Origin: Crateriforma conspicua
Lineage (GTDB): Bacteria; Planctomycetota; Planctomycetia; Pirellulales; Pirellulaceae
NCBI RefSeq assembly: GCF_007752935.1
Contig: NZ_CP036319.1
Coordinates: forward strand, 5,684,501-5,748,500
DNA length: 64,000 nt
Direction: 5' to 3'
The notes under the pieces are model-generated. The model was not told where the DNA came from. It saw only the letters and a program-made list of their open reading frames with translations, and did no database searches. This document shows, in pieces, positions 44,255 to 59,081 of this stretch; position 1 is the stretch's first letter; each line of letters opens with the position of its first letter. The translations under genes were made by a program, and so were the position numbers.

Positions 44255-45922
44255 TCAGTTCGGGTGATCCGAAGTTGCCGAGTGTTCGACATGGTTTTGA
44301 AGGTATTGGTGAACACAAGTGATTCCCAGTGCGCCGTCGCCCGCGGCAAACGCACAACGTTTTGTCGTTCCGCTGCGGACATCACCGGCGGCAAAGATTC
44401 CCGGTCGGCTGGTTTCCAATTCGCAGGGTTCACGCGACACCGGCCACGCGTCCGCCTGTCGCAAAGCAGGCCCCGTCAAAATGAAACCACGACGATCCAG
44501 TGCCAGCGTTTCCCCCAGCCAATCGGTGTGCGGCTTGGCGCCGACAAAAACGAAAACGGCCTGGCAGCCGAGTGTTTGGGATGATTGATCTTGGTTGTTG
44601 CGAACCACAATATGCTGGACGCAATCTTCACCATCCAACCGATCGATTTCCGTATTCAACATGACGTGGATGTTTGCGTTGGATTCGATTCGACGCGCAA
44701 GGTAGTCCGACATGCTCTTGCGCAGATTGTCACCGCGAATCAGCAATCGAACTTCGCTGGCATGCCCCGACAAATACATCGCTGCTTGACCAGCGGAATT
44801 TCCGCCTCCCACCACCACCGCCATCGAATCCCGACATGACCGCGATTCGACGGTGGTCGCGGAATGGTAGAGCCCCGATCCTTCGAAACGATCGGCACCA
44901 TCGACGGGCAACCGTCGGTAAGAAACGCCGGTGGCGATCAGGATCGTTTTGGTCCTGACCGATTGTCCCGTACAAAACTGCACCTGATGCATGCCGTCGG
45001 ATGTCGGAGTGACCGAGGTGACGGAAACGGGAGCTAAGAAATCAGCATTGAATTTCATGGCCTGAAGAAACCCGAGATTGGCTAACTCGGTTCCCGGCAA
45101 ACCGGCCGGAAACCCCATGTAATTTTCAATACGTGAACTTTGACCCGCTTGACCGCCGGGTCCGACACTATCGACCAGCAACGTTTCTAAACCTTCGGAG
45201 GCACCGTAAACCGCTGCTGCCAAACCGGCCGGCCCGGCCCCGACGATGACCACATCGTAGGGACGACTGCGGACATCTCTGGCGATCCCCAAGCATTCGG
45301 CGACCTTTGCAAGCGACGGTCGCGGAATGACATTCTGGCTGCATGCGATGACCGGTGTTTGCTCGTTCTCGATGCCCCAATCCTTGATCGCTGATTGCCC
45401 TTGGGGACTGGCCACATCAATAAATGTGTAGGGCACTTTGTTTTTGTAAAAGAATTCACGAAAGCGTAGCGTTTCACCAGAATTGGCCGCGCCGACGACT
45501 CGGATTCCCAAAAATCCCGAATCCTCCAACATACGGCGTCGTACCTGAAAGGCGTCCAACAAACGGTCGCTCAGTTCCGGCAGATCCGCAATCATCTGGC
45601 GGACTTGGCAATACGGCACTTCGATCAACTGGCAATTCCCGACCGCAACGGCCGTTACAACCGAAGGGCGATTGGTCAACATCGATACGTCGCCGGTAAA
45701 CTCGCCGGGGCCGTGAACCGCGATTTCGTTTGGACTTCCCGACGACGCCTCGGTGATGCGGACGGTTCCTTCGCGAACAACGAAGAAAGAAAACTCACGA
45801 TCACCTTCGCGAAAAAGCACACGCCCATCGGCAACGTCACGAAGATCCCCGATTTCGGACACGATCTCCATCTCACGCTCGTTCAGCTTTGGAAACGCCG
45901 TCTCGGCTGTGCTTGCTGCCAT
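44255..45922 (-). CDS. Cyclic-nucleotide-domain/thioredoxin-reductase-like fusion
   Basis: 555 residues from ATG 45922. Residues 25-130 form a cNMP-binding-type domain (VLFREGDREFSFFVVREG ... GEFTGDVSMLTNRPS). Residues 138-215 are a glutaredoxin-like segment (VVGAANSGETLRFREFFYK). From 220 comes a TrxR-type FAD/NAD(P)H module with GAGPAGLAAA (228-237), GQAGQSSRIENYMGFP, GGGNSAGQAA (372-) and FAAGDVRSGTTKR. The redox CxxC of thioredoxin reductase is absent: SATTVESRSC stands there. So it probably reduces another partner. Such fusions are known in several phyla; the ligand and substrate are undefined. Confidence 0.87.
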   Translation of the reverse strand: MAASTAETAFPKLNEREMEIVSEIGDLRDVADGRVLFREGDREFSFFVVREGTVRITEASSGSPNEIAVHGPGEFTGDVSMLTNRPSVVTAVAVGNCQLIEVPYCQVRQMIADLPELSDRLLDAFQVRRRMLEDSGFLGIRVVGAANSGETLRFREFFYKNKVPYTFIDVASPQGQSAIKDWGIENEQTPVIACSQNVIPRPSLAKVAECLGIARDVRSRPYDVVIVGAGPAGLAAAVYGASEGLETLLVDSVGPGGQAGQSSRIENYMGFPAGLPGTELANLGFLQAMKFNADFLAPVSVTSVTPTSDGMHQVQFCTGQSVRTKTILIATGVSYRRLPVDGADRFEGSGLYHSATTVESRSCRDSMAVVVGGGNSAGQAAMYLSGHASEVRLLIRGDNLRKSMSDYLARRIESNANIHVMLNTEIDRLDGEDCVQHIVVRNNQDQSSQTLGCQAVFVFVGAKPHTDWLGETLALDRRGFILTGPALRQADAWPVSREPCELETSRPGIFAAGDVRSGTTKRCAFAAGDGALGITCVHQYLQNHVEHSATSDHPN

Positions 45923-46197
45923 CAAAGTTACCCTTGTCGTCCGAATTTCCCGGCGAATCACTGAAACGAGCAGTTAATTGTATCGCTTCGGCGATCCATC
46001 GCATCGGCCATACCCGCAGCGACCGTAACCACTCGGAACGCGGCGGCATGCCGATTCCTGACGCCAACCTCCGTGAAACCATGAAGATTGCGTAAGAAGT
46101 CGTTGTTCCGTCATTTGGCAGCGGACAAACTCAGAACGACCTCCAATGTCGTCGTGATCAACGCGCCGATCCTTCCCAGACGAAGAGCTTCCAACAC

Positions 46198-48461: not shown

Positions 48462-50078
48462 TCATTCGGATTCCGTCTTTGATTCGCCCAAATCCACCAC
48501 ATCGACATCGCGCCAGCGAAAATAGATGGCACCCGTCGGACAAGCATCGACGCATTCCCGGGCGACCGAGTGAACGGCATCTTCCCATGAACGGTCGAAC
48601 GGAACGCCGACGCGAACATCAAAGCCACGACCGACGAATGACAGCCCAAGATCTGACTTGGATTTTGAAGCGATCTGAATGCATAACTCGCACTTGATGC
48701 ACTTCCCGGGTTCGAACAAGACGTCACCACCGCGGCCAACCACTTCGTAAGTCGCTTGACGAGACCCGAATCGTCCCGGGTCGGCATTGTATATCGATGC
48801 CCAATGTTCCAATCGACAGTTGCCGTGGGCCACGCACCCACAAGCCAGACAACGGCCGGACTGTTTGGCGGCTGTGACGGAATCCACACCGCCGGTCGAT
48901 TCGTCCACCACCAATTGTGCCGTGGCCAACGGTGCGTGCCCGGCGTCTTGTACAAACTGATCCAGTTCTTGAGGTGCGACCTTGCCCATCCGAGATGAAA
49001 ACGCTCGAGAAATTCCCGTCATTTTTCCCTTGGTCAGGTACTGGTCGATGCAAACAGCCGCTTCTTTCCCGTCCGCCGTGCTGCGTACAAAGAGTGCGTT
49101 TCCACGAACGGCGTTTCCCGCAGCAAATACCTGATCGACATCCGTGGCGTAGGTCGCACGGTCCACCTGGATGCCTTTTCGGTTCGTCTTTAATCCCCAC
49201 TGCTGTGCCGCCTGCATCTGGTCTTCGCCCCAAGCCACGAGGACCGCATCAAAGTCTTCCAACAGGTTCTCAAATTCATCCTTCGACTGGACCGCTCGAT
49301 CACAGGTCAATTCGAAACCGACCTGACGAACTCGCTGAATCTCTGATGCCAGAACCGCTGGCGGCAAAGCATCGCCCCCCAATGCGTGCAGCCGACCACC
49401 AGGCTGCGACGCCTTCTCTAAAACTTGGCATTGATGCCCCAGCCGAGTCAGGTAGTAGGCTGCCGACAGACCGGTTAAACCGGCGCCAATGACGGCAACG
49501 CGTTTCCCAGATGCGTTTGTTGGTTCGGGTTGATAACCGTCACCGGTCGCCAAGTCTTTATCGGCAACCACTTGCTTCAATTGGCACACCGCGACCGGGT
49601 CATCTGCAGCGTTTCTTCGACATCCCTTTTCACACGGTTTGGTACAAATGCGTCCCAGAATGGCTGGAAACGCGATGTCGTTCTTGATCGTTTCGATCGC
49701 TGCGGACCATTCCTGATCACCGATCTGACGCAGCATCAATGGAATGTCCATGTGCGCGGGACAGGCGAAGTGGCACGGCGCCAGACAGTCCCCCACGTGC
49801 TCGCTAAGCAACAATTCCAGTGCCGTTCGGCGCGCCGCGTGGACTTCATCCGACTCACTCTCGATCTGCAGACCATCCGTCGCAGCGGTGGCACAACTGG
49901 GAACCATCCGCCCGGTCGCGACATCACGCACCAGACAGACTTGGCACGACGCCGATGGGTCATAGCCCTTCAGATAGCACAGCGTGGGGATTTCGATCCC
50001 AACCGACAGGGCAGCTTCCAGGACAGTCGTGCCGGGATCGACCACAACATCCGTCTGATCAATGCGTATCGTTGGCAT
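48462..50078 (-). CDS. 2Fe-2S/4Fe-4S flavoprotein, GltD-like but without NAD(P)H domain
   Basis: 538 residues. Residues 1-75 are a NuoG/HydA-type 2Fe-2S ferredoxin (C34, C45, C48, C62). H94-x3-C98-x3-C102-x3-C106 resembles the His-Cys3 cluster. C145, C149, C153 and C165 match the GltD N-terminal cluster region. One Rossmann FAD site, GAGLTGLSAAYYL (198-), ends at VFAAGNAV (317-324). The second, NAD(P)H-binding Rossmann domain of GltD is missing. The C-terminus has Cys at 410, 413, 415, 421, and C460-x2-C463-x2-C466...C513-P. It is probably an electron carrier working with the NADH-oxidising subunit encoded 99 bp upstream. The reaction is unknown. Confidence 0.82.
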   Translation of the reverse strand: MPTIRIDQTDVVVDPGTTVLEAALSVGIEIPTLCYLKGYDPSASCQVCLVRDVATGRMVPSCATAATDGLQIESESDEVHAARRTALELLLSEHVGDCLAPCHFACPAHMDIPLMLRQIGDQEWSAAIETIKNDIAFPAILGRICTKPCEKGCRRNAADDPVAVCQLKQVVADKDLATGDGYQPEPTNASGKRVAVIGAGLTGLSAAYYLTRLGHQCQVLEKASQPGGRLHALGGDALPPAVLASEIQRVRQVGFELTCDRAVQSKDEFENLLEDFDAVLVAWGEDQMQAAQQWGLKTNRKGIQVDRATYATDVDQVFAAGNAVRGNALFVRSTADGKEAAVCIDQYLTKGKMTGISRAFSSRMGKVAPQELDQFVQDAGHAPLATAQLVVDESTGGVDSVTAAKQSGRCLACGCVAHGNCRLEHWASIYNADPGRFGSRQATYEVVGRGGDVLFEPGKCIKCELCIQIASKSKSDLGLSFVGRGFDVRVGVPFDRSWEDAVHSVARECVDACPTGAIYFRWRDVDVVDLGESKTESE

Positions 50079-50177: not shown

Positions 50178-52589
50178 TCATCGCGATTCACCTTTCGGGC
50201 CCGACACAATTCGAATGGCATCTTCGGGACAGATCGTTCGACACGCGTCACATCGTGTGCATCGACTGTCATCAATCGAGTGAATGCGATAGGGCGTCAT
50301 TGGAATCGCATCCACCGGGCACTGTTGGCTGCAAAGCGTACATCCGATGCAATTGTCTTGAACTTGGTATGAGATCAAGTTTTTGCATCGCCCCGAGGGA
50401 CACACGCCACGAAGGTGCGCTTCGTATTCATCTCGGAAATACTTCAGCGTCGAAAGAACGGGATTGGGGGCGGTTTTACCAAGTCCACATAAGCTGCCTT
50501 GGGAAACGCTTTCGCAAAGCGATTCCAAGGTGGCCAGATCAGCCTTCTTTCCCTTCCCCTCGCACATGCGATCCAGGATCTCCAGTAAACGCTTGGTCCC
50601 CACACGACAATACGTACATTTGCCGCATGACTGGTCCTGGGTGAACCGCAGGAAGTACCGGGCGATATCCACCATGCAGTCGGTGTCGTCCAAAACAACC
50701 AAACCACCACTTCCCATGATCGCGCCGACACCACGCAATGCCTCATAGTCCACCGGCGTGTCGGCCAATTCTGCAGGAATGCATCCACCTGATGGGCCGC
50801 CGACCTGCACCGCTTTGAACGTCCGGCCTTCGGGGACACCACCACCGATCGAGTTTACGATTTCGCGAATCGTGATTCCCATCGGGACTTCGATCAGCCC
50901 TCCGCGTTGCACCTTTCCGGTCAACGCGAACACTTTGGTTCCTTTGCTGGATGGTGTTCCCACGGACGCGTATTGTTCGCCGCCGTGACGCAGAATCCAT
51001 GGCACCATTGCCAGGGTTTCAACGTTATTGATCAACGTGGGCTTTTTCCAAAGTCCCGACTGGGCAGGGTAGGGCGGACGTAAACGCGGCGTTCCACGAC
51101 CGCCTTCGATCGAATGAATCAGCGCGGTTTCTTCACCACAAATGAACGCACCGGCGCCCTCTTTGATATCAAATTCCAGCGAATGATTGCTTCCCAGAAT
51201 GTTCGGCCCCAAAATTTTCGCTTCCTTGCACCGCTCAATCGCTTCGCCAATACGCGTCACCGCAAGTGGGTATTCCGCGCGGATGTAGAAGTATCCTTGC
51301 CGAGCCCCGACAGCCAGCGCGGCGATCGCCAATCCTTCGATCACGCGATAGGGAAAGGATTCCAGCAGCATACGATCCATGAACGCGCCGGGATCGCCTT
51401 CATCCCCGTTGCAGATGACGTACTTCTGGTCGGATTGCGTGTCCGAAACGATTTGCCACTTCGCAGCCGATGGAAAGCCGCCGCCCCCACGCCCTCGCAA
51501 TCCAGACACACGAATCTGGTCAATGATCTCTTGCGGCAAACGCTCGTGAGCACAGCGTCGCAACGATTGAAAACCGCCGAACCGTTTGTACTCCGCAAGA
51601 TCCAAAGGATCGATGGCACCACTGTTTTCGGTGGCGATTCGTTTCTGCGGTCCCAGAAAATCGCAAACCGGACCACATTCGGTTTCCAGCGGTGTCGTCG
51701 CGTCGTCGGACGGCGGCTGTCCTTCGTAAACGACATCCAACAGGTGATTTGCAGCCGATGCGAATCGTGAAATCCAGCTTTTTCGCGGAAAGCTTGAACG
51801 CAAGATTCGATCGACGTCCGATTCAACGACTCGTGCGAATGTTTCGGTCGTCCCGTCGCGTTTGCAGACTTCCAGCAGCGGCGTCTGGTGACACATTCCG
51901 ACGCATCCGACGCTTTTGACTTTGGCATCCACGCCCAGCTCAGACGCAGTCGCGGCGGCTTTGTCGAACACGCGTCGACTGCCCTGCGCGACACAGCATG
52001 ACCCCAAGCCGACGCGAATTTCGCCGGCACCCTCGGGCATACGACGCGGCATCGCAATCGAGGTCTTTGGTCCGGACACTCTGGTGTCGACTGATCGAAC
52101 CTTCTTGGCCACTTCGGCAGGTGCGAGCCGCCCGAAGACTTGGTCGTCGACTTGTACCACCGGTGCAAGGGTACAACATCCCAAGCATGCCACCGGTTCA
52201 ATCGTGAACTGTTGATTTGGATCGGTATCCTGCGTCGGATCCATCCTCAAATCAGTTCGAAGCGTTTCGATCAATAGATCGGCCCCCTTCACGTGGCATG
52301 CCGTTCCACAGCAAACCTGAACGTGATGGCGTCCCATCGGCCGATGCCGAAACTGGGTATAAAACGTGGACACTCCGGCGATCGAAGCGGGGGTGATATC
52401 GGTCAATTCACAGACACGCTCAAGCGCCGACGATGGCAGATAGCGATAATGTTTTTGAATAGACTGCAGCAGCGGAACGACGGCATCCGGTGTCCGTCCG
52501 ATGCGCCGCACGGCATCGTCGACGAAGGTCAAATCCACGTCCGTCGTTGGCGAATCCGCCCCAACCGTTTCCTTGACAACCGCACTCAT
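50178..52589 (-). CDS. NuoE-NuoF (HydC-HydB-like) fused NADH dehydrogenase subunit
   Basis: 803 residues. Order: NuoE-like 2Fe-2S domain (20-165; C94, C98, C135, C139); second thioredoxin-like 2Fe-2S domain (190-265; C198, C199, C229, C233); NuoF core (330-650) with FMN/NADH motif GLRGRGGGGFPSAAKW (364-379) and NGDEGDPGAF; 4Fe-4S C655GKC658TYC661 with C701; and two C-terminal 4Fe-4S clusters (C747/750/753/757 and C777/780/783/787). This equals HndA plus HndC, or HydC plus HydB, of electron-bifurcating hydrogenases in one chain. No hydrogenase or formate dehydrogenase subunit is present. The start ATG 52589 overlaps the upstream stop as ATGA. Confidence 0.9.
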   Translation of the reverse strand: MSAVVKETVGADSPTTDVDLTFVDDAVRRIGRTPDAVVPLLQSIQKHYRYLPSSALERVCELTDITPASIAGVSTFYTQFRHRPMGRHHVQVCCGTACHVKGADLLIETLRTDLRMDPTQDTDPNQQFTIEPVACLGCCTLAPVVQVDDQVFGRLAPAEVAKKVRSVDTRVSGPKTSIAMPRRMPEGAGEIRVGLGSCCVAQGSRRVFDKAAATASELGVDAKVKSVGCVGMCHQTPLLEVCKRDGTTETFARVVESDVDRILRSSFPRKSWISRFASAANHLLDVVYEGQPPSDDATTPLETECGPVCDFLGPQKRIATENSGAIDPLDLAEYKRFGGFQSLRRCAHERLPQEIIDQIRVSGLRGRGGGGFPSAAKWQIVSDTQSDQKYVICNGDEGDPGAFMDRMLLESFPYRVIEGLAIAALAVGARQGYFYIRAEYPLAVTRIGEAIERCKEAKILGPNILGSNHSLEFDIKEGAGAFICGEETALIHSIEGGRGTPRLRPPYPAQSGLWKKPTLINNVETLAMVPWILRHGGEQYASVGTPSSKGTKVFALTGKVQRGGLIEVPMGITIREIVNSIGGGVPEGRTFKAVQVGGPSGGCIPAELADTPVDYEALRGVGAIMGSGGLVVLDDTDCMVDIARYFLRFTQDQSCGKCTYCRVGTKRLLEILDRMCEGKGKKADLATLESLCESVSQGSLCGLGKTAPNPVLSTLKYFRDEYEAHLRGVCPSGRCKNLISYQVQDNCIGCTLCSQQCPVDAIPMTPYRIHSIDDSRCTRCDACRTICPEDAIRIVSGPKGESR

Positions 52590-54373
52590 GACTGGAGTCC
52601 CAAACAATAAAGGTGTTCACGACCTCGCAGGAAGATCTTTCCGTTGGCGACGGCGGGGCTGGTCACACAATCTTCGCCCAAATTCGATTCCGTGATTGTT
52701 TCGCACCCGTCTTCGCTGGGACGAACCGTCCAGCACAATCCTGTTTCACCGACCAGTAGGACGTCGTCACCAAAACACGTGGGTGAAGCCTGGAAATTGT
52801 CCTCGTAATCGGTCTCCCATAGGGGGTCGCCACCGCTGTCGGCATCGTATGCCGCAAGGGTTCCATAGGACGTCAGCATCAAGACAAGGTCGCCGACGAT
52901 CAGCGGGCTGGTTGTATCCGGAATGCTGAATTCCGCTGTCCAATCGACATGCGTTTCCGTCACATCCCCAGTGCCTCCCCAACGAACCGCCGTCGCTCCG
53001 GGCGATTCGTTTGCCACAATCACGTGCTGGTCCGAAAAAACAGGAGACGGACCGACATCTTGACGAAGTGCTGCACAACGCCAGCGTTCGGATCCATCGC
53101 TCAGGTTGTAGGCGATGACCCAAGGATCGGCACAAGCAATCAAAACATCCTGTCCGTCTCGATTAGCGACGATCGGGGTCGACCACGACGCGGGCACCTC
53201 TCGTGCAATGGAATAAACCGCATCGCCTGTGGCAACGTCCAACACGTCGATTCGTGATGCATCGTCGGACTTGCTGCCTTGGTCCAACTGCACGATCAAT
53301 CGATCACCCGACAGCACCAAGGAAGAAGCGTGCCCATAGATGTTTTCCAGTGGGCCCAAATCCCTTAACCACACTTCATTGCCATCACGATCCAGTGCCA
53401 CCAACAAGCCATCCGCGAAAATGGCGAAGGCCAACTGGCCATTGGTGGTCATCGTCGACGCGGCGTACCCCGTGTCTTCACTGACTTCGACCGCGGGACG
53501 CGTGGGATCCGGATGCTCCACCTCTTTCGTCCAAAGCAGCGTCCCATCGGTGACCGAAAAGCTCTGGACGCAACGTCGCGTTTCGTCCGCCGACGCCAAA
53601 AACACACGGTCACCCCACACCACCGGGGATCCATTACCGGGACATTCGACCGGCACCTTCCACAGGATGCCTTCGCCGGTATCTGCATCCCAGCGAAAAT
53701 CCAAGGACGACATTGCACTGGTTCCATCACCCCGTGGCCCACGAAATCGATACCAGTTGCTCGCAAATTCTTCAGCCGAAACCGACGCCATTACACTCTG
53801 GATCTCGGGAGGGGCGGTGGCAGCCTCCCCACCGTCGGCTTGATTGCGTTCGACAGCAGAATCCTCGATCGCACGTGACGCAGCGAGGGCCGCTGACAGG
53901 TCTTGTTGGCCATTCCTTTGCAACAACACCGCCACCATCAGACACGCCGCAACCAGAACGGTGACAGCGGACATGCCCCAGGTGGATTTGCGATGAAAGT
54001 CACTTGGTTCTGGATCACCACTCCGAATTTGCATTTGCGATGGGTCGGACATTGGTCCCAAACGCCGCGATGCCAGGAAGACGATCACCGCACCGACCAA
54101 ACACAAACGCGCGCCCCACCAAGTGAACGCCTTTCGACGAAAATACTGTTGTCGTACCTGTTGATCGCGTTGGCGGATCTGCTGTTTTAGCGAATCGTCA
54201 TTGGGTTGTTCACGCAATTCAAGTTTCAATTGCTGCAACGTCGAATCGCTATACGGGTCGATGATTCGACCGCCGAAATCGAAGAACAACGCTACTCCGA
54301 CGAACAACAGAAACCAGGTGGCAACCACCGATAATCCGTTGCGGTTTCGATAGAACAGTTGAAACAGATTCAT
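52586..54373 (-). CDS. Membrane-anchored PQQ-like beta-propeller protein
   Basis: 595 residues. The N-terminus has three hydrophobic helices (about 14-33, 84-100, 128-148) separated by a Gln/Arg-rich helical segment. From about 200 follows a PQQ-dehydrogenase-like propeller (WYRFRGPRGDGTSAM, then repeats of the type DGTLLWTKEV and GSERWRC). PQQ cofactor ligands of true quinoprotein dehydrogenases are not obvious, so it is more likely a structural or binding propeller. It overlaps both neighbours by ATGA (54370-54373 and 52586-52589), tying it to the iron-sulfur proteins of the operon. Confidence 0.85.
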   Translation of the reverse strand: MNLFQLFYRNRNGLSVVATWFLLFVGVALFFDFGGRIIDPYSDSTLQQLKLELREQPNDDSLKQQIRQRDQQVRQQYFRRKAFTWWGARLCLVGAVIVFLASRRLGPMSDPSQMQIRSGDPEPSDFHRKSTWGMSAVTVLVAACLMVAVLLQRNGQQDLSAALAASRAIEDSAVERNQADGGEAATAPPEIQSVMASVSAEEFASNWYRFRGPRGDGTSAMSSLDFRWDADTGEGILWKVPVECPGNGSPVVWGDRVFLASADETRRCVQSFSVTDGTLLWTKEVEHPDPTRPAVEVSEDTGYAASTMTTNGQLAFAIFADGLLVALDRDGNEVWLRDLGPLENIYGHASSLVLSGDRLIVQLDQGSKSDDASRIDVLDVATGDAVYSIAREVPASWSTPIVANRDGQDVLIACADPWVIAYNLSDGSERWRCAALRQDVGPSPVFSDQHVIVANESPGATAVRWGGTGDVTETHVDWTAEFSIPDTTSPLIVGDLVLMLTSYGTLAAYDADSGGDPLWETDYEDNFQASPTCFGDDVLLVGETGLCWTVRPSEDGCETITESNLGEDCVTSPAVANGKIFLRGREHLYCLGLQS

Positions 54374-55677
54374 GGACGATGTTCCCCCTGAATCGTTGGC
54401 AATCCCACGACGCCTTGTTTGGCATGTTCGACGGGACAATATTCAAAGCAACGCCCACAGGAAACGCATGCCGATCGATCGGCAACAAATTCGTCTTGTT
54501 GTCGACGGCGACACAAAGAAACCGATTTGCCAACGACGACCAGTGCAATCCAAACGCCAAGCCCCACACCGGCGTAGCGATACCGATGCTGTGTTGCAAC
54601 CGCGTCCAATAACAACTGATCGGCGTCGCCCTGTGCGGCGCGAAAAGCATCGCTGGCGTCGTTGGTTGGCCACTGGGGATCAACCGCTTCATGCTGCAAC
54701 TGACTTGCCAGCTGCACATCGAATTCCAAGCCCGAAAGAGCTGGTCCAAGGCGATAGCCCACAATTGCCAAGCCAATGATCAGCACAGGGGTGGCGGCGA
54801 AGACAATCATCAGACGTCGTTTCCCCGAAACAGCCTCTTGATCGGTGGCCGTTTCGGTAGGTGGCTCGATCGCACCATAGGGACAAGCGTCCCGACAAAG
54901 CCCGCAACGGATGCAGTCGCCCGGTGGAATCCGCACGTTCGATCGCGAAACTCCGGAACACGCGGACAACAACGCACCGTACGGACAAAGAAAGCGACAA
55001 TACGGTCTTCCGACGAACACACCGACAAGCAGCAGGAACGTTCCGAACAGAATCATTCCGGCATTTCCGTTGAATCGAAAGAAGCCGACGAACGGATCGT
55101 AACGACAGATCAAAAACATGCCTCCGCTGGCTGCAAAGATGACCGCGGCTCCCAGATAGATCCACGGCACCAAACCCAAACCATGATCGATCCATTTGGG
55201 GATTTGAACGTTTCGGACAGCCACCATTTCTTGGATCGCCCCCAAGGGGCAGACGCCCGAGCAAAAGACACGCCCAGAATAGAGAGCGAACAGAATCGGC
55301 AAACAGAAAAACCCGATCACTGTTAGCGGAACGGCATAAGACGCGTTGGTCATCGCATAGGCAACATTCTGTACCGAACCCACCGAACAAACGCAGCCTT
55401 GACGAATGAATCCGAACCAGACCAACGAAAATGCGGACAACCAAAACAGCGACCGACGCGATCGAACGACCAGGGCGAAATAGCTGGCGAGGACTAGCGC
55501 GACCAAAAGGAGCCCCAAGTCCAGGCACTCCCACCAGAAACCGCTGGCTGCCGGTTGTTCCGATACCGGAATCGCGTGATCGGAAAACTGGGGCGTCGGA
55601 ATCAGATTTCCCAGCATGAATCCGCACAACGCCGCCGACGATTCACAAATGCCCGCCACACACACCGTTTGAATCAT
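54370..55677 (-). CDS. NapH/NosR-like membrane polyferredoxin
   Basis: 435 residues with about six membrane helices. Two NapH/NosR-type CxxxCP motifs lie at C139-C143-P144 (RVFCSGVCPLGAIQE) and C227-C231-P232 (RPYCRFLCPYGALLS). A 4Fe-4S site is at C255/258/261/265 and another near the C-terminus at C404/407/410/414. An additional GCVCSVGSVQN (C95, C97) occurs in a helix end. Such proteins pass electrons between quinol and periplasmic or cytoplasmic iron-sulfur partners. Starts and stops overlap by ATGA with the genes on both sides. In NapH and NosR the equivalent clusters face the cytoplasm; the same is assumed here. Confidence 0.87.
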   Translation of the reverse strand: MIQTVCVAGICESSAALCGFMLGNLIPTPQFSDHAIPVSEQPAASGFWWECLDLGLLLVALVLASYFALVVRSRRSLFWLSAFSLVWFGFIRQGCVCSVGSVQNVAYAMTNASYAVPLTVIGFFCLPILFALYSGRVFCSGVCPLGAIQEMVAVRNVQIPKWIDHGLGLVPWIYLGAAVIFAASGGMFLICRYDPFVGFFRFNGNAGMILFGTFLLLVGVFVGRPYCRFLCPYGALLSACSGVSRSNVRIPPGDCIRCGLCRDACPYGAIEPPTETATDQEAVSGKRRLMIVFAATPVLIIGLAIVGYRLGPALSGLEFDVQLASQLQHEAVDPQWPTNDASDAFRAAQGDADQLLLDAVATQHRYRYAGVGLGVWIALVVVGKSVSLCRRRQQDEFVADRSACVSCGRCFEYCPVEHAKQGVVGLPTIQGEHRP

Positions 55678-56318
55678 CGCAGCGTCACCTGATGCAGAAG
55701 GGCCTTCGATTGATTCGTCGGTGTCGGCCTATTGGTCAACAATTCCTGTGCCTGGCGTTTCAACAGATACGGCCGTTCGGCGGGGACTTGCAGGAATGCC
55801 TCGGTGGGACAGGCGCGACTGATCGCACATTCGTTGCAATTCACGCATTTGTCCTGCATGACCTGCAGGTACAGCGAACCGTTCATCAACGCACAGCCTT
55901 TCACGCACTTTCCACAACCAATGCAGGCTTCGGGGTCGATGGTGTATTCGTAAAACTTCTGGCCCGCTTTTTCTTCAACGAATCGACGTTCGATGGCCGC
56001 AGTCGGACAAAGTTGGTTCTCCGCGGCCGTGTCGACGGCGGTGTAGTTGGGGTCCAGGTAACCCGTGCAGATGTCGCAATACCCACACATGTCAAAGCAC
56101 TGAACACACTTGACCGCGGATTCATCCAGAACGCATTCGGTTGCACATCGGCTGCATCCCACACAGCGATCCGGGTCGATCTGCCAACGCATTTCTTGTC
56201 CGACCGCTGAGCGTCCGGCCACTCCCCCGGCAACGGCACCAACCGCCAAAACGCCGACAGCCCGAGTCATATCACCGACAAATTGACGCCGTGATTCGCG
56301 ATGATCCGCGTTCATCAT
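55674..56318 (-). CDS. Tat-exported polyferredoxin (NapG-like)
   Basis: 214 residues. The Tat motif SRRQFVGDM and a hydrophobic stretch (20-40) precede four 4Fe-4S-type groups: C52/55/58/62, a dense run C71/74/78/81/84 with C104, C132/135/138/142 and C158/161/164/170. Its place before the NapH-like gene matches the napGH arrangement, where NapG is a periplasmic partner of NapH. Here the cysteine run at 71-84 is denser than in NapG. ATG 56318 overlaps the upstream stop by ATGA and has AAGGA 7 bp upstream. Confidence 0.85.
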   Translation of the reverse strand: MMNADHRESRRQFVGDMTRAVGVLAVGAVAGGVAGRSAVGQEMRWQIDPDRCVGCSRCATECVLDESAVKCVQCFDMCGYCDICTGYLDPNYTAVDTAAENQLCPTAAIERRFVEEKAGQKFYEYTIDPEACIGCGKCVKGCALMNGSLYLQVMQDKCVNCNECAISRACPTEAFLQVPAERPYLLKRQAQELLTNRPTPTNQSKALLHQVTLR

Positions 56319-56575
56319 CGTTGCTTCCTTGGACGTGAATCCGACCGCGACGGTTGGCGAATCTGACATGCCACGCTTAAGCGACACTGGTCACAGCCCG
56401 TTCCCTGGTCGATACAGCGTCCCGACATTCTTCGCTGCACAAGAAAGTACGCGATCAGTGCAATCACCAACGTCGTACCACCACGCATCCATTGTCGGAA
56501 CCATTCCCGGCGATCGATGAATCGCCTGTTCGGATGATTGCTCGTTTGCCGTTTGGGATCGTTCATGGGAATCAT
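56315..56575 (-). CDS. Small one-TM protein with C-x6-C-x2-C-x5-C motif
   Basis: 86 residues. A basic N-terminus, one membrane helix (33-47), and a C-terminal tail with C54, C61, C64 and C70 and many Arg/Lys. It is co-translated with both neighbours (1-bp gap before, ATGA overlap after), so it is likely a component of the redox assembly. The four cysteines could hold one iron-sulfur cluster or a metal. I do not recognise the family. The start may also be ATG 56566. Confidence 0.7.
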   Translation of the reverse strand: MIPMNDPKRQTSNHPNRRFIDRREWFRQWMRGGTTLVIALIAYFLVQRRMSGRCIDQGTGCDQCRLSVACQIRQPSRSDSRPRKQR

Positions 56576-56576
56576 C

Positions 56577-57641
56577 TCAGTTGCCTGCAAGTTCCAAATC
56601 GTCGGCCATGCGTGCCTGGGCAAAGACGCGGACACAGTGCTGCAGCGGATCGAGAACCAAGATTTCGCCGGCGGAGTTTGATGCGACGTCGAAAATGGCC
56701 GGCGTCATGTCGGTACGTGGATCGCCCAAGCGACTGGAATCCACCTGCAGGTCCTCCGACGCGGCCACCAATCCATCGAACTGCCCATCGGCGGTATAGA
56801 CCTTGATGCGCGGGATGCCTTTTTCGCTGGTCAAGAACCGGCCGTCGGGCAGACGGGATAAATGGACGGGGTTGCAACAACCGAAAAAGCTTTCGACATC
56901 GACACCGCTTTCGCCCCAGGCCAGTTCAAACTTCCCGTCCGACGAATAAGTCTCCACGCGATGAAGCCCCGGATTGACGACGTACAACAAACCGTCGTCG
57001 GAGGAAAGCAATTCGAAATGATTGCTGGGAACGTTGAAACGCCGTCCATCGGGAACTCGATCAGATCCATTCCATTGGTTCATCAGCCCCGCGGAATGAT
57101 CAAAATGATGAACCAAACGTTGCCCCGCATCGGCTAGATAGACACCGGCATCGGACATCGCGATGGCGGTGATAATCGCGTCGGCCGACATCGAAGCCCA
57201 CGGTGTCACTTGACGTGATGCGAAATCGACGCGATGCACCTGGTTGGCCGATGCCACCAGAATCGATGGCACTTCGCCGGACGCAGCGGAATCGATTGTC
57301 GCGCATTGTGGAACGAATGACAGTTCCATTGCCCCGTGTACTTTGCCATTCTGATCCATCCATACCACGTCGCCTTGCTGATCCGATCGACGCCCCAGGA
57401 CCAGAATGAAGTCGGCACTGGAAACCTCGATCGCAATGGGGTCCTGCAACGCCAATGAAATCTCTCGGACCTGTTTCCACTCGAATGAATCAGCGTTGGG
57501 ACGCAGATGTGGATCCAAATCTAGCTGAAACGCGGAGCCCGGAATGTCGGGATTAACGCGTCGATCAACCACCAAGTAGCCTGCAGCACCGATGATCGCG
57601 ATGGTCGCGACAACGATCGGGATAGCATGCATTCGATTCAT
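56577..57641 (-). CDS. Membrane-anchored NHL-repeat beta-propeller
   Basis: 354 residues. A signal anchor (HAIPIVVATIAIIGAAGYLVV) precedes a propeller of NHL-type blades (RVDFASRQVTPW, YVVNPGLHRVETYSSDGKF, PRIKVYTADGQFDG, ILVLDPLQHCVRVF). A Cys pair (GCCNPVH) sits in the fourth blade. It is probably a periplasmic scaffold or binding module for the adjacent electron-transfer proteins. NHL proteins lack intrinsic catalysis in most cases. The gene lies 15 bp after the PQQ-like gene and 1 bp before the small Cys protein. Confidence 0.82.
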   Translation of the reverse strand: MNRMHAIPIVVATIAIIGAAGYLVVDRRVNPDIPGSAFQLDLDPHLRPNADSFEWKQVREISLALQDPIAIEVSSADFILVLGRRSDQQGDVVWMDQNGKVHGAMELSFVPQCATIDSAASGEVPSILVASANQVHRVDFASRQVTPWASMSADAIITAIAMSDAGVYLADAGQRLVHHFDHSAGLMNQWNGSDRVPDGRRFNVPSNHFELLSSDDGLLYVVNPGLHRVETYSSDGKFELAWGESGVDVESFFGCCNPVHLSRLPDGRFLTSEKGIPRIKVYTADGQFDGLVAASEDLQVDSSRLGDPRTDMTPAIFDVASNSAGEILVLDPLQHCVRVFAQARMADDLELAGN

Positions 57642-57656
57642 CACTTTGTCCCGTGT

Positions 57657-59081
57657 TTAGTTCTGAGGTTCGGATGCCGGCAGAAGGTCCAAACACGCCA
57701 TCCGAGTCATTTCACGCAGAATCAATTTTCCATCCACGATTGCCATCGGCCCCCAAGCGTCATGTCCATCGGGAAAGATCTCGGCCTGCGCGATGGGTTC
57801 GTAGGATTTGGTATTGGCTTGAACCGCCGTCAACGTGCCATGATCATCCAATAACCAAATTTTGTTGTCCGCAATCAGATAAGGTCCGTGCCCGAATCGA
57901 TCCCGCCCGCTGGACCAAACTTCGTTTCCATCCAAATCCATACAGACCAACACGCCGCCACCTCGTTTGCGAACTCCAAAGATGTGTTGTTGGTACACGA
58001 TCGGTGTTTGCTGTTCGGAATTGAATTCTTTGGGAGTGAATTCCTTCACGATGTCGACGCCATCGACGGTATCGGATACCTGGAACAAGATTGCACCGAC
58101 CTTGGATCCGTAACCACTGGACACCAAGAATCGACCGTTCGGCAGCACCAGGGGCGATGGGGCGTGGGCGAATTGGACCGGCCAGGATGTCGTGTCCCAC
58201 AGAATCTTTCCCGAATCGGCGTCCACTCCCGCGATCCCGCCACTGCCGCAGTAGACGTACATGTGTGTTCCGCCGACGTTCATTGGCACAACGCTGGAAT
58301 GCGTCATTTCCCACTGACGCGGATTGGCTGATTCCCAGATCACATCGCCGGTTTTGATATCCAAAGCGACAAGCAATGCGGTTCCGCCCACACCAAGAAT
58401 CAGCTTTCCTTCATCCACCAAAGGGCACTGCCCGACGTACCAGCGGGGTTCGACAGCCTGGTAATCAGCCACCAAGCTTTTCAGCCAAAGATTCTTGCCC
58501 GTGCTTGCATCCCAAACGGCCAAATGACATCGGGGCCCCAGCGTGATGACCAACCCGCCGGCGATCGTGGGGACGGTTCGTGTGATGCCATGGTTTCGCG
58601 TCACCGGGACCGGATAGCTGTTCCGCCAAATCTCTTGTCCATCCGCCAACGACAAGCAGCGCAGCACATCGGATTGAACCGTCTCGTCATAGTCCAACAC
58701 GTACACACGACCGTTGGAAACCGCCGCACCGGCGTATCCTTCACACAAGGTGATTTCCCATTGCTTGCCCGGTCCATCAGACGTCCAGTCGGTCCGCAGT
58801 GTCGGTGTTTCAGTGACGACATTGCCACCATTCGGCCCGCGGAATCCCATCCACGTTCCATCGGTCACGCCCGCCACACCGGCACCCGCAACCGGTTGCC
58901 CAGGAATCGGAACGGCGACAGCATCACTTTTTAGACTGACCGTCGCGGGTGCGCCGTCTTGTCCCGGCAATCGCATGCGGACCTGCTGCGTTGGCCGGAC
59001 ACTGATCCATCCAACAGCAACGACAACGGCGATTAGAGCCACCAAGCCCAACGTTCCACGATCTACGGCGGAGGCTTTCAT
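57657..59081 (-). CDS. PQQ-like beta-propeller with membrane anchor, first gene of redox operon
   Basis: 474 residues. One N-terminal helix (LGLVALIAVVVAVGWI) anchors a propeller with PQQ-like blades (GQEIWRNSYPV, TGKNLWLKSL, TGDVIWESANP, SGKILWDTTSW, GNEVWSSGRDR). Blade motifs are those of BamB and quinoprotein-like domains, and no clear PQQ active site is seen. The gene begins the eight-gene minus-strand operon, 586 bp from the divergent PQQ gene at 59668, which encodes a second, non-anchored propeller. Confidence 0.85.
   Translation of the reverse strand: MKASAVDRGTLGLVALIAVVVAVGWISVRPTQQVRMRLPGQDGAPATVSLKSDAVAVPIPGQPVAGAGVAGVTDGTWMGFRGPNGGNVVTETPTLRTDWTSDGPGKQWEITLCEGYAGAAVSNGRVYVLDYDETVQSDVLRCLSLADGQEIWRNSYPVPVTRNHGITRTVPTIAGGLVITLGPRCHLAVWDASTGKNLWLKSLVADYQAVEPRWYVGQCPLVDEGKLILGVGGTALLVALDIKTGDVIWESANPRQWEMTHSSVVPMNVGGTHMYVYCGSGGIAGVDADSGKILWDTTSWPVQFAHAPSPLVLPNGRFLVSSGYGSKVGAILFQVSDTVDGVDIVKEFTPKEFNSEQQTPIVYQQHIFGVRKRGGGVLVCMDLDGNEVWSSGRDRFGHGPYLIADNKIWLLDDHGTLTAVQANTKSYEPIAQAEIFPDGHDAWGPMAIVDGKLILREMTRMACLDLLPASEPQN

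Follow-up and report, generated by a model that had tools for sequence, protein, structure and literature searches.

What could a GltD-like flavoprotein be for once it has lost the domain that binds nicotinamide adenine dinucleotide phosphate, NADP(H)? The question is posed by the planctomycete Crateriforma conspicua, in which a 64,000-nucleotide stretch of contig NZ_CP036319.1 (hereafter, the window) carries on the reverse strand an open reading frame (ORF) of 538 amino acids (48462..50078). Judged by its domains and predicted fold, the product is a StnC/NfnA-type variant of the BfuA subunit within the Bfu family of bifurcating enzymes, devoid of the feature that defines Nfn-Bfu, the NADP(H) domain. 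This domain is missing, the ligands of an iron-sulphur wire and of a neighbouring catalytic core are conserved, the gene neighbourhood is conserved as well, and the relatives form a graded series. We lean towards the view that this BfuA is the wire subunit of a Bfu complex that has been rewired from an NADP(H) port to a NapH/NapG-like membrane module.

A subunit without its NADP(H) domain

The NuoG-like 2Fe-2S domain that the first-pass annotation of this DNA had placed at the front of the protein is there (Pfam Fer2_4, residues 3-76, 54.7 bits against a cut-off of 22.8) and corresponds to the 2Fe-2S domain (IPR001041) expected of a Bfu-family BfuA, with C34, C45, C48 and C62 present in all 66 rows of our alignment. 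It is followed by NADH-G_4Fe-4S_3 at 83-99 (below the cut-off), by Fer4_20, the DPD/GltD N-terminal 4Fe-4S domain, at 99-177, and by dinucleotide-binding matches that begin at residue 193 and belong to a Rossmann remnant (193-350) of the type that binds flavin adenine dinucleotide (FAD). Two ferredoxin models stay under their cut-offs (Fer4, 15.5 bits against 21.1; Fer4_Nqo3, 21.6 against 27), and the cysteines of this candidate ferredoxin domain (IPR017896) are conserved (C460, C463 and C466 in 66/66 rows, C513 in 65/66). The alignment comprises the window protein and 65 of 80 loci, themselves the best 80 of 266 relatives from a scan of GTDB species genomes; the 15 other loci (L046, L049, L052, L053, L054, L057, L062, L064, L066, L069, L072, L085, L104, L108 and L112) were dropped by hand as close kin of kept rows, as fragments or for an in-range stop.

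So where is the second nucleotide-binding domain? In a phmmer comparison with 9bov_A, a chain of the Caldicellulosiruptor (C.) saccharolyticus NfnABC, BfuA residues 4-284 align to 6-286 and residues 272-519 to 422-672, which leaves 9bov_A 287-421 without a counterpart; the domain order of GltD and StnC identifies this segment as the NADP(H) domain. An AlphaFold2 model built from 66 sequences (predicted local distance difference test, pLDDT, 90.9; predicted template modelling score, pTM, 0.88) has the same chain as its top structure match (Z 40.9, 515 residues, 2.5 A), with near-full-length matches also to 9n5u_A, from the NfnABC of Thermococcus (T.) sibiricus (Z 40.0), and to 8oh5_C, from the StnABC of Sporomusa (S.) ovata (Z 39.4), and residues 97-350 of the model fit NfnL 5jfc_L, a chain that spans 46-472, over 253 residues at 1.8 A. 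The single Rossmann motif and the FAD end motif stand where the first-pass annotation had put them, 123 residues apart when counted from G198 to G321, and by pairwise alignment this spacing is 121-126 in 76/80 relatives, the outliers being L096 (100), L070 (130), L077 (132) and L056 (150); regular expressions, by which the motifs were measurable in only 70/80 relatives, give 117-146. GltD-type paralogues from related genomes served as controls, and here the motif-to-motif spacing, measured in the latter way, is 264-299 in all 19 measurable cases among 21 loci, with the GD aspartate kept in all 19. By these comparisons the NADPH domain is wholly missing from BfuA, as that annotation had claimed and as the 9bov, NfnL and GltD comparisons agree, and from such an anatomy the protein should not act as an NADP(H) reductase of the GltD, NfnB or StnC type. 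A GltD, that is, the NADPH-dependent glutamate synthase small subunit, was likewise rejected because the second Rossmann domain is absent and the curated NCBIfam models score below their cut-offs (TIGR01316, 136.5 bits against 471.75; NF009454, 367.5 against 916).

Neither a local deletion nor a sequencing artefact can account for the gap. A gene of the same genus has the same architecture at 95% identity, which argues against a frameshift, and 65 further aligned relatives have it at 39-60%; together with the spacing shared by 76 of the 80 relatives, this excludes a deletion confined to the strain, the outcome that would have undone the earlier claim. Could NADP(H) binding be supplied in trans, by a separate protein? 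Nothing was found in favour of this notion beyond its bare possibility, and no evident small Rossmann protein occurs in the neighbour clusters common to at least 6 of the 80 loci (ORFs of at least 90 amino acids, with clusters named by eye and drawn from the neighbourhoods only); we give it next to no credence.

A conserved iron-sulphur wire

In StnC, a linear electron path FAD-C7-C6-C5-C4-C3 links the FAD site with the bifurcating flavin mononucleotide (FMN) (PMC10482914). By alignment with StnC and with the description in PMC10482914, the conserved BfuA ligands appear to be those of clusters C4 (the [2Fe-2S] site, C34/C45/C48/C62), C6 (H94, C98, C102 and C153), C7 (C106, C145, C149 and K168), C5 (C410/C413/C415/C421) and C3 (C460/C463/C466/C513). 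As many as 17 of the 19 wire cluster residues are invariant in 66/66 rows, namely the four cysteines of the [2Fe-2S] site, H94, C98, C102, C106, C145, C149, C153, C410, C413, C415, C460, C463 and C466, and the remaining two, C421 and C513, are each found in 65/66. The position of K168, the equivalent of the C7 ligand K170 of StnC, is Lys in 54/66 rows, including the window protein, and Glu in 12/66, the residue that NfnB has at this place (PMC10482914).

For the second ferredoxin cluster (StnC C2, Bfu A4), the ligands have disappeared, and the FdhF-like tail with C1 is gone, the protein having 538 amino acids compared to 1172 in StnC. The additional 4Fe-4S sites that the first-pass annotation had seen behind the flavin domain are thus real, except that only one of the two ferredoxin-type clusters keeps its ligands. 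As a separate observation, positions 165 and 168 co-vary (Cys165 with Lys168 in 53/66 rows, Arg165 with Glu168 in 12, Arg with Lys in one); at 168, Lys and Glu are known as alternatives from the FAD-proximal cluster of StnC and NfnB (PMC10482914), and 11 of the 13 Arg165 rows come from Verrucomicrobia by their record titles.

What remains of the flavin site

FAD binding of the glutathione-reductase type involves a GxGxxG motif, an acidic ribose residue and a GD aspartate. The half of this signature that concerns adenosine diphosphate (ADP) is kept (GxGxxG in 66/66 rows, Asp or Glu at 221 in 65/66, GG in 66/66), whereas the flavin side is mostly lost: the GD aspartate is found in only 7/66 rows, Arg at the position of StnC R239 also in 7/66, and positions 322 and 232-237 are variable, only R231 being frequent (53/66). 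In StnC, the R239A variant shows 0.03 U/mg compared to 1.08 for the wild type (PMC10482914). In the majority of family members, the remnant looks selected for nucleotide binding and probably still binds a nucleotide of the ADP type, FAD being the likeliest.

Does this FAD carry electrons? The first-pass annotation had taken the protein for an internal FAD relay; spelled out, the bound FAD would be an obligatory hop between C7 and an external one-electron partner, for example, the ferredoxin domain of NapH. This interpretation is compatible with the conserved ADP half, with the superposition of the FAD region on NfnL, with the Lys or Glu at the fourth-ligand position of C7, as in StnC and NfnB (PMC10482914), and with two relatives, L169 and L170, which have no NADPH domain but keep both the flavin-site Arg and the GD Asp, making a relay plausible for some members. 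It is difficult to reconcile, however, with the scarcity of both residues among the 66 rows and the effect of R239A, with relatives that have the same gene set and no FAD domain at all and yet keep the wire, and with the L165 gene set, whose 200-residue BfuA is without the GltD part. What survives of the earlier proposal is the conserved ADP half and the flavin-side residues of L169 and L170; FAD looks dispensable in some relatives, in which flavin function would have been lost, and an obligatory relay strikes us as unlikely, albeit the most serious of the flavin-based alternatives.

Alternatively, the exposed flavin might serve as a newly acquired active site whose substrate is not NAD(P)H but a quinone, a thiol or another small molecule. 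Loss of the domain that covers the isoalloxazine would be expected to expose the flavin, and conservation of the ADP half is compatible with such a role, but among the flavin-side positions examined there are no strongly conserved new residues apart from the frequent R231, and the FAD domain is absent in some relatives, all of which makes this option very improbable.

The neighbouring, putatively bifurcating core

Directly upstream of the BfuA gene, on the same reverse strand, lies the gene (50178..52607) for an 809-amino-acid NuoE-NuoF fusion (NuoEF), the putative BfuC-BfuB core. It combines the NADH/FMN site, the [2Fe-2S] site of the NuoE part, a second, thioredoxin-like [2Fe-2S] domain, the NuoF [4Fe-4S] site, a Zn/B-site and a C-terminal 2[4Fe-4S] ferredoxin domain; Complex1_51K, NADH_4Fe-4S, Fer4 and 2Fe-2S_thioredx all score above their Pfam cut-offs. 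In the Bfu family, BfuB has the NuoF FMN, NADH 4Fe-4S and ferredoxin domains and BfuC is NuoE-like (PMC9304861); NuoEF has all of these. A candidate SLBB region (IPR019554) lies at the expected place, 559-608, with scores below the cut-offs of 27 bits (PF10531, 22.7; PF22461, 23.1), and the best PDB matches of NuoEF are the BfuB subunits 9bov_B, 8oh5_B and 9n5u_B. The window protein has all the putative Fe-S and Zn-site ligands, which were mapped by alignment to the Bfu clusters B2-B5 and C1, and each of them, including C205, C235, H731, C736, C741, H776 and all eight ferredoxin cysteines, is present in 57/57 rows (the window plus those 56 loci that reached 90% coverage and contained no stop), with the exception of C204 and C239, each in 52/57. 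Clusters B2-B5 are absent from non-bifurcating homologues (PMC9304861), and NuoEF is therefore a Bfu core by its anatomy.

Two simpler views of this core have to be considered. One is that NuoEF is a fragment of complex I, which we rejected given that the sole PF01512 matches in the genome are the NuoEF fusion itself and a 477-amino-acid frame beside Rnf-Nqr-family genes. The other is that the genes encode a plain NADH dehydrogenase, one that does not bifurcate and passes electrons to the NapGH-like module with no involvement of ferredoxin. Among the hosts are named strains of Rhodopirellula and Stieleria, which are known as aerobes, a fused NuoE-NuoF could work like the NADH module of complex I, and C204 and C239 are each missing in 5/57 rows. 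These arguments have to be set against the conservation, in 57/57 or 52/57 rows, of precisely those sites by which Bfu cores differ, that is, the second [2Fe-2S], the Zn/B-site and the C-terminal 2[4Fe-4S] domain, against the absence of B2-B5 from non-bifurcating homologues (PMC9304861), and against the Rnf/Nqr-family genes in the window's genome, which make a ferredoxin pool plausible. A plain dehydrogenase thus appears to us a rather unlikely explanation.

A membrane module as the probable third partner

If not NADP(H), then what is at the far end of the wire? The genes upstream of NuoEF, all on the reverse strand, suggest an answer. They encode a PQQ/BamB-like beta-propeller with three hydrophobic segments, probably membrane-anchored (PQQ2, 52586..54439); a NapH/NosR-like polytopic membrane iron-sulphur protein with two CxxxCP and two 4Fe-4S motifs (54370..55677); a NapG-like ferredoxin of the twin-arginine translocation (Tat) type, probably exported, with about four [4Fe-4S] sites (55674..56387); an NHL/propeller-like protein with one N-terminal hydrophobic segment, identified by reading the sequence and with no Pfam match (56577..57644); and, as the first gene of the set, another PQQ/BamB-like beta-propeller with an N-terminal hydrophobic segment (PQQ1, 57657..59081). 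Counting only loci with enough upstream DNA and one gene per place, NuoEF is upstream of BfuA in 63/65 loci, so that homologues with the same deletion beside NuoE-NuoF, which the first-pass annotation had suggested looking for, do exist; PQQ2 is found in 52/57, the NapH-like protein and the Tat ferredoxin each in 48/51, the NHL-like gene in 46/50 and PQQ1 in 40/49. Where at least 9.9 kb of upstream DNA is available, NuoEF, NapH and the Tat ferredoxin occur together in 46/49 loci and all six genes in 39/49. The set would be an operon transcribed as a single unit. A loose pattern finds the RR motif in 52/52 homologues of the Tat ferredoxin. The 54370-55677 protein is, by its sequence, NapH-like and not a NapH, scoring 53.1 bits against the NapH/MauN model TIGR02163 with its cut-off of 213.05. 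The flavinylated NapH-like system of an eLife survey was considered and rejected, because a search of the window's NapH-like protein, though not of the remaining genome, revealed no domain that binds FMN.

The port is gone in most members of a gene set that nearly always includes the NapH-like protein and the Tat-type ferredoxin, and transfer between the wire and NapH is therefore the most economical reading, with the NapH/NapG-like module as, most likely, the third partner. In the scenario that we favour, BfuA would be the input subunit, and the BfuC-BfuB fusion next door would be the bifurcating core that handles NAD(H) and ferredoxin. The NADP(H) port would have been dismantled stepwise after the complex joined the NapH-like protein and the Tat-type ferredoxin, while selection kept the Fe-S wire that in StnC joins FAD and the bifurcating FMN. 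This wire, C3-C4-C5-C6-C7, would lead to the site at which NADPH gives its hydride in StnC, and electrons would pass, via NapH and the wire, between the core and the membrane or periplasm, where the quinone pool or an exported redox partner might be involved; the residual Rossmann domain would be no hydride port and would not be essential to the route. BfuA and NapH would be parts of one physical complex, and the core would bifurcate; whether electrons run from NADH plus ferredoxin towards quinone or the other way cannot be told from sequence.

Several observations touch the same neighbourhood. Besides the CxxxCP and 4Fe-4S motifs, C95, C97 and C191 of the NapH-like protein are invariant in 50/50 rows and might bind a further metal or cluster within the membrane. 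Three contigs from metagenome-assembled genomes (MAGs) of Thermoguttaceae or Blastopirellula (L060, L063 and L064) have a mini-BfuA and no NuoEF match in the available flank, which in L063 amounts to just under 2.6 kb of upstream DNA; assembly limits or a different partner could be the cause. Downstream of BfuA, loci among L039-L118 have an ATP-binding cassette (ABC)-type ATPase (21 loci), a long FtsX-like permease (14) and a glycosyltransferase-like gene (17), names that come from reading the sequences, at median offsets of about +2.8 to +4.7 kb with wide ranges; the window has no such set next to its BfuA. Outside the gene set, at 44255-45961 on the reverse strand, a thioredoxin-reductase-like protein has, on reading its sequence, a cyclic-nucleotide-binding-like N-terminus and a glutaredoxin-like middle.

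A graded series

The stepwise dismantling proposed here seems to have left intermediates. In L152, with the order PQQ1-NHL-TatFeS-NapH-NuoE/NuoF-BfuA, and in L153, where a contig end cuts the set to NapH-NuoEF-BfuA, BfuA has about 700 amino acids and an intact NADP(H) Rossmann motif. In L154, whose neighbours include PQQ2 and NuoEF, and in L155, where a short contig carries nothing of the set but BfuA, it has about 715 amino acids, the NADP(H) motif has decayed, and GD has become GE. L169 and L170 come next, without the NADPH domain and with both flavin-side residues, followed by most rows of the alignment, the window included, in which both residues are absent as well. Finally, the FAD domain is absent from L149 (341 amino acids, whole gene set), L150 (342, adjoining NuoEF on a short contig) and L151 (372, in the same gene set), all three of which retain every wire cysteine and histidine and do not retain the K168 position, and in L166 the FAD motif has decayed and C7 ligands are lost. 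The 200-residue NuoG/HoxU-like BfuA of the L165 gene set (L165:10577-11167), which has no GltD-type part, possibly represents replacement rather than further reduction.

A tree of the wire segments (304 columns, with the FAD/NADPH region taken out, L165 left out on purpose, L167 because of a contig end and L163 for want of a BfuA in reach), rooted on the Stn-type L159-L162, has L169 and the NADPH-bearing pair as its basal branches; the decayed pair comes next (support 88), all other forms follow (94), and the FAD-less ones are nested twice; two changes explain the distribution of the NADPH domain and two the FAD-less state. In the NuoF tree, the operon clade is split from the Stn-type by a starred branch with support 99, and L165 sits on a very long branch. 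The stepwise order of domain loss is thus suggested but not proven.

What weighs against a rewired wire subunit with a dispensable flavin? The near-invariance of GxGxxG, the acidic residue and GG indicates that nucleotide binding is seemingly under selection in most members, and a pure vestige should drift faster than this ADP-half signature does; L169 and L170 retain both flavin-side residues, and seven rows of the alignment retain the GD aspartate. The wire tree is a quick one in which the branches with support 88 and 94 carry no star and L151 and L166 sit on long branches, and the NuoF tree has weak deep branches, nests the NADPH-bearing rows among the minis and requires three changes, so that regain or several losses are possible. 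The rows lacking C204 or C239 have to be counted here too, as do L060 and L064, with no NuoEF upstream, and L042, L073 and L113, with no NapH or Tat ferredoxin seen in the available upstream DNA.

Distribution

The full-length form occurs in 9/60 related genomes, the window's included, at 43-100% identity. By record titles, the best 80 of the 266 relatives come from Planctomycetota, Verrucomicrobia, Aminicenantes, KSB1, Caldithrix, Neomarinimicrobiota, Bacteroidales, Acidobacteriota and others; many of these are MAGs, and binning errors are accordingly possible. Of 392 Planctomycetota genomes drawn evenly, 91 contain a match at an E-value of 1e-50 or better. In 22/392, one unbroken match spans at least 95% of the search model; the remaining matches are partial, and in many cases what is matched is the GltD-type N-terminus of a longer frame. 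The Tat-type ferredoxin that belongs to the gene set occurs in 37/392.

It is conceivable, and here we would wager slightly less than even, that all this amounts to an undescribed, widespread class of membrane-bound bifurcating enzymes that consist of a fused BfuC-BfuB, a BfuA wire without its NADP(H) port and at times without its FAD port too, a NapH/NapG-like transmembrane module and exported beta-propellers. Such enzymes would connect NADH plus ferredoxin with quinone or with an electron partner outside the cytoplasm. They would occur in Planctomycetota, Verrucomicrobiota, Aminicenantes, KSB1, Caldithrix relatives and others, and among them would survive intermediate stages of the change from NADPH to the membrane.

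Relation to known systems

Bfu enzymes are modular, with one core and many third substrates, and 17 BfuB clades have no assigned partner (PMC9304861); the gene set described here may be included in these clades and offers a concrete candidate for a new sort of Bfu partner, a NapH/NapG-like transmembrane module. The graded series, in turn, illustrates with extant sequences how a substrate port may be lost from an enzyme, one domain after another, with the electron wire intact, and lets one ask which StnC-type cofactors are needed at all. The third-substrate types described in the accessible part of PMC9304861 include no NapH-type partner, and the words NapH, NapG, NosR, PQQ and propeller do not occur there; the same holds for NapH and propeller in the accessible parts of PMC11406978 and PMC10482914. 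PMC8238504, as far as its text is accessible, deals with NapH-like systems, and with NuoF alongside MsrQ-like ones, and does not use the word PQQ. In PMC5317091, PMC9012536 and PMC8805022, NapH or Nuo genes turn up with a different topic, and the 'NapH' of PMC8805022 stands for naphthoquinone. No description of the gene set was recognised among the papers listed by full-text searches of the open PubMed Central (PMC) library, a scope that does not extend to subscription papers, preprints and supplements.

Among the closest known systems is StnABC of Sporomusa ovata (8OH5), which shares the succession of NuoG-N [2Fe-2S], GltD Fe-S/FAD, CxxCxC cluster and ferredoxin-type cluster, the wire C7-C3 and a HydBC-like core next door (PMC10482914). 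Unlike StnC, the present protein has no NADP(H) domain, no C2 ligands and no FdhF-like C1 domain, and unlike in StnABC, BfuC and BfuB are fused and the gene set includes a NapH-like protein, a Tat ferredoxin and beta-propellers. NfnABC of T. sibiricus (9n5u/9n5v) and C. saccharolyticus (9bov) has the same subunit fold, and T. sibiricus NfnA likewise is without the A4/C2 ligands (PMC9304861 and alignment), but the NfnABC chains contain an extra domain that is absent here, and T. sibiricus Nfn-Bfu uses NADP(H) (PMC9304861); the accessible literature on these two enzymes describes no NapH module. GltD, NfnL and the DPD domain share Fer4_20 and the FAD Rossmann domain and differ by the NADP(H) Rossmann domain that is missing here. 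The NapGH quinol dehydrogenase and other NapH-like systems combine, as here, a polytopic CxxxCP membrane protein with an exported ferredoxin (PMC8238504), although in the present case the module stands beside a cytoplasmic Bfu core and the NapH-like protein of the window has no FMN-binding domain. A further parallel is Nuo-Bfu (Bfu type 3, quinone-linked), whose Bfu core has likewise been proposed to couple with the quinone pool, with the difference that Nuo-Bfu uses the membrane subunits of complex I (PMC9304861) in place of a NapH/NapG-like module and propellers.

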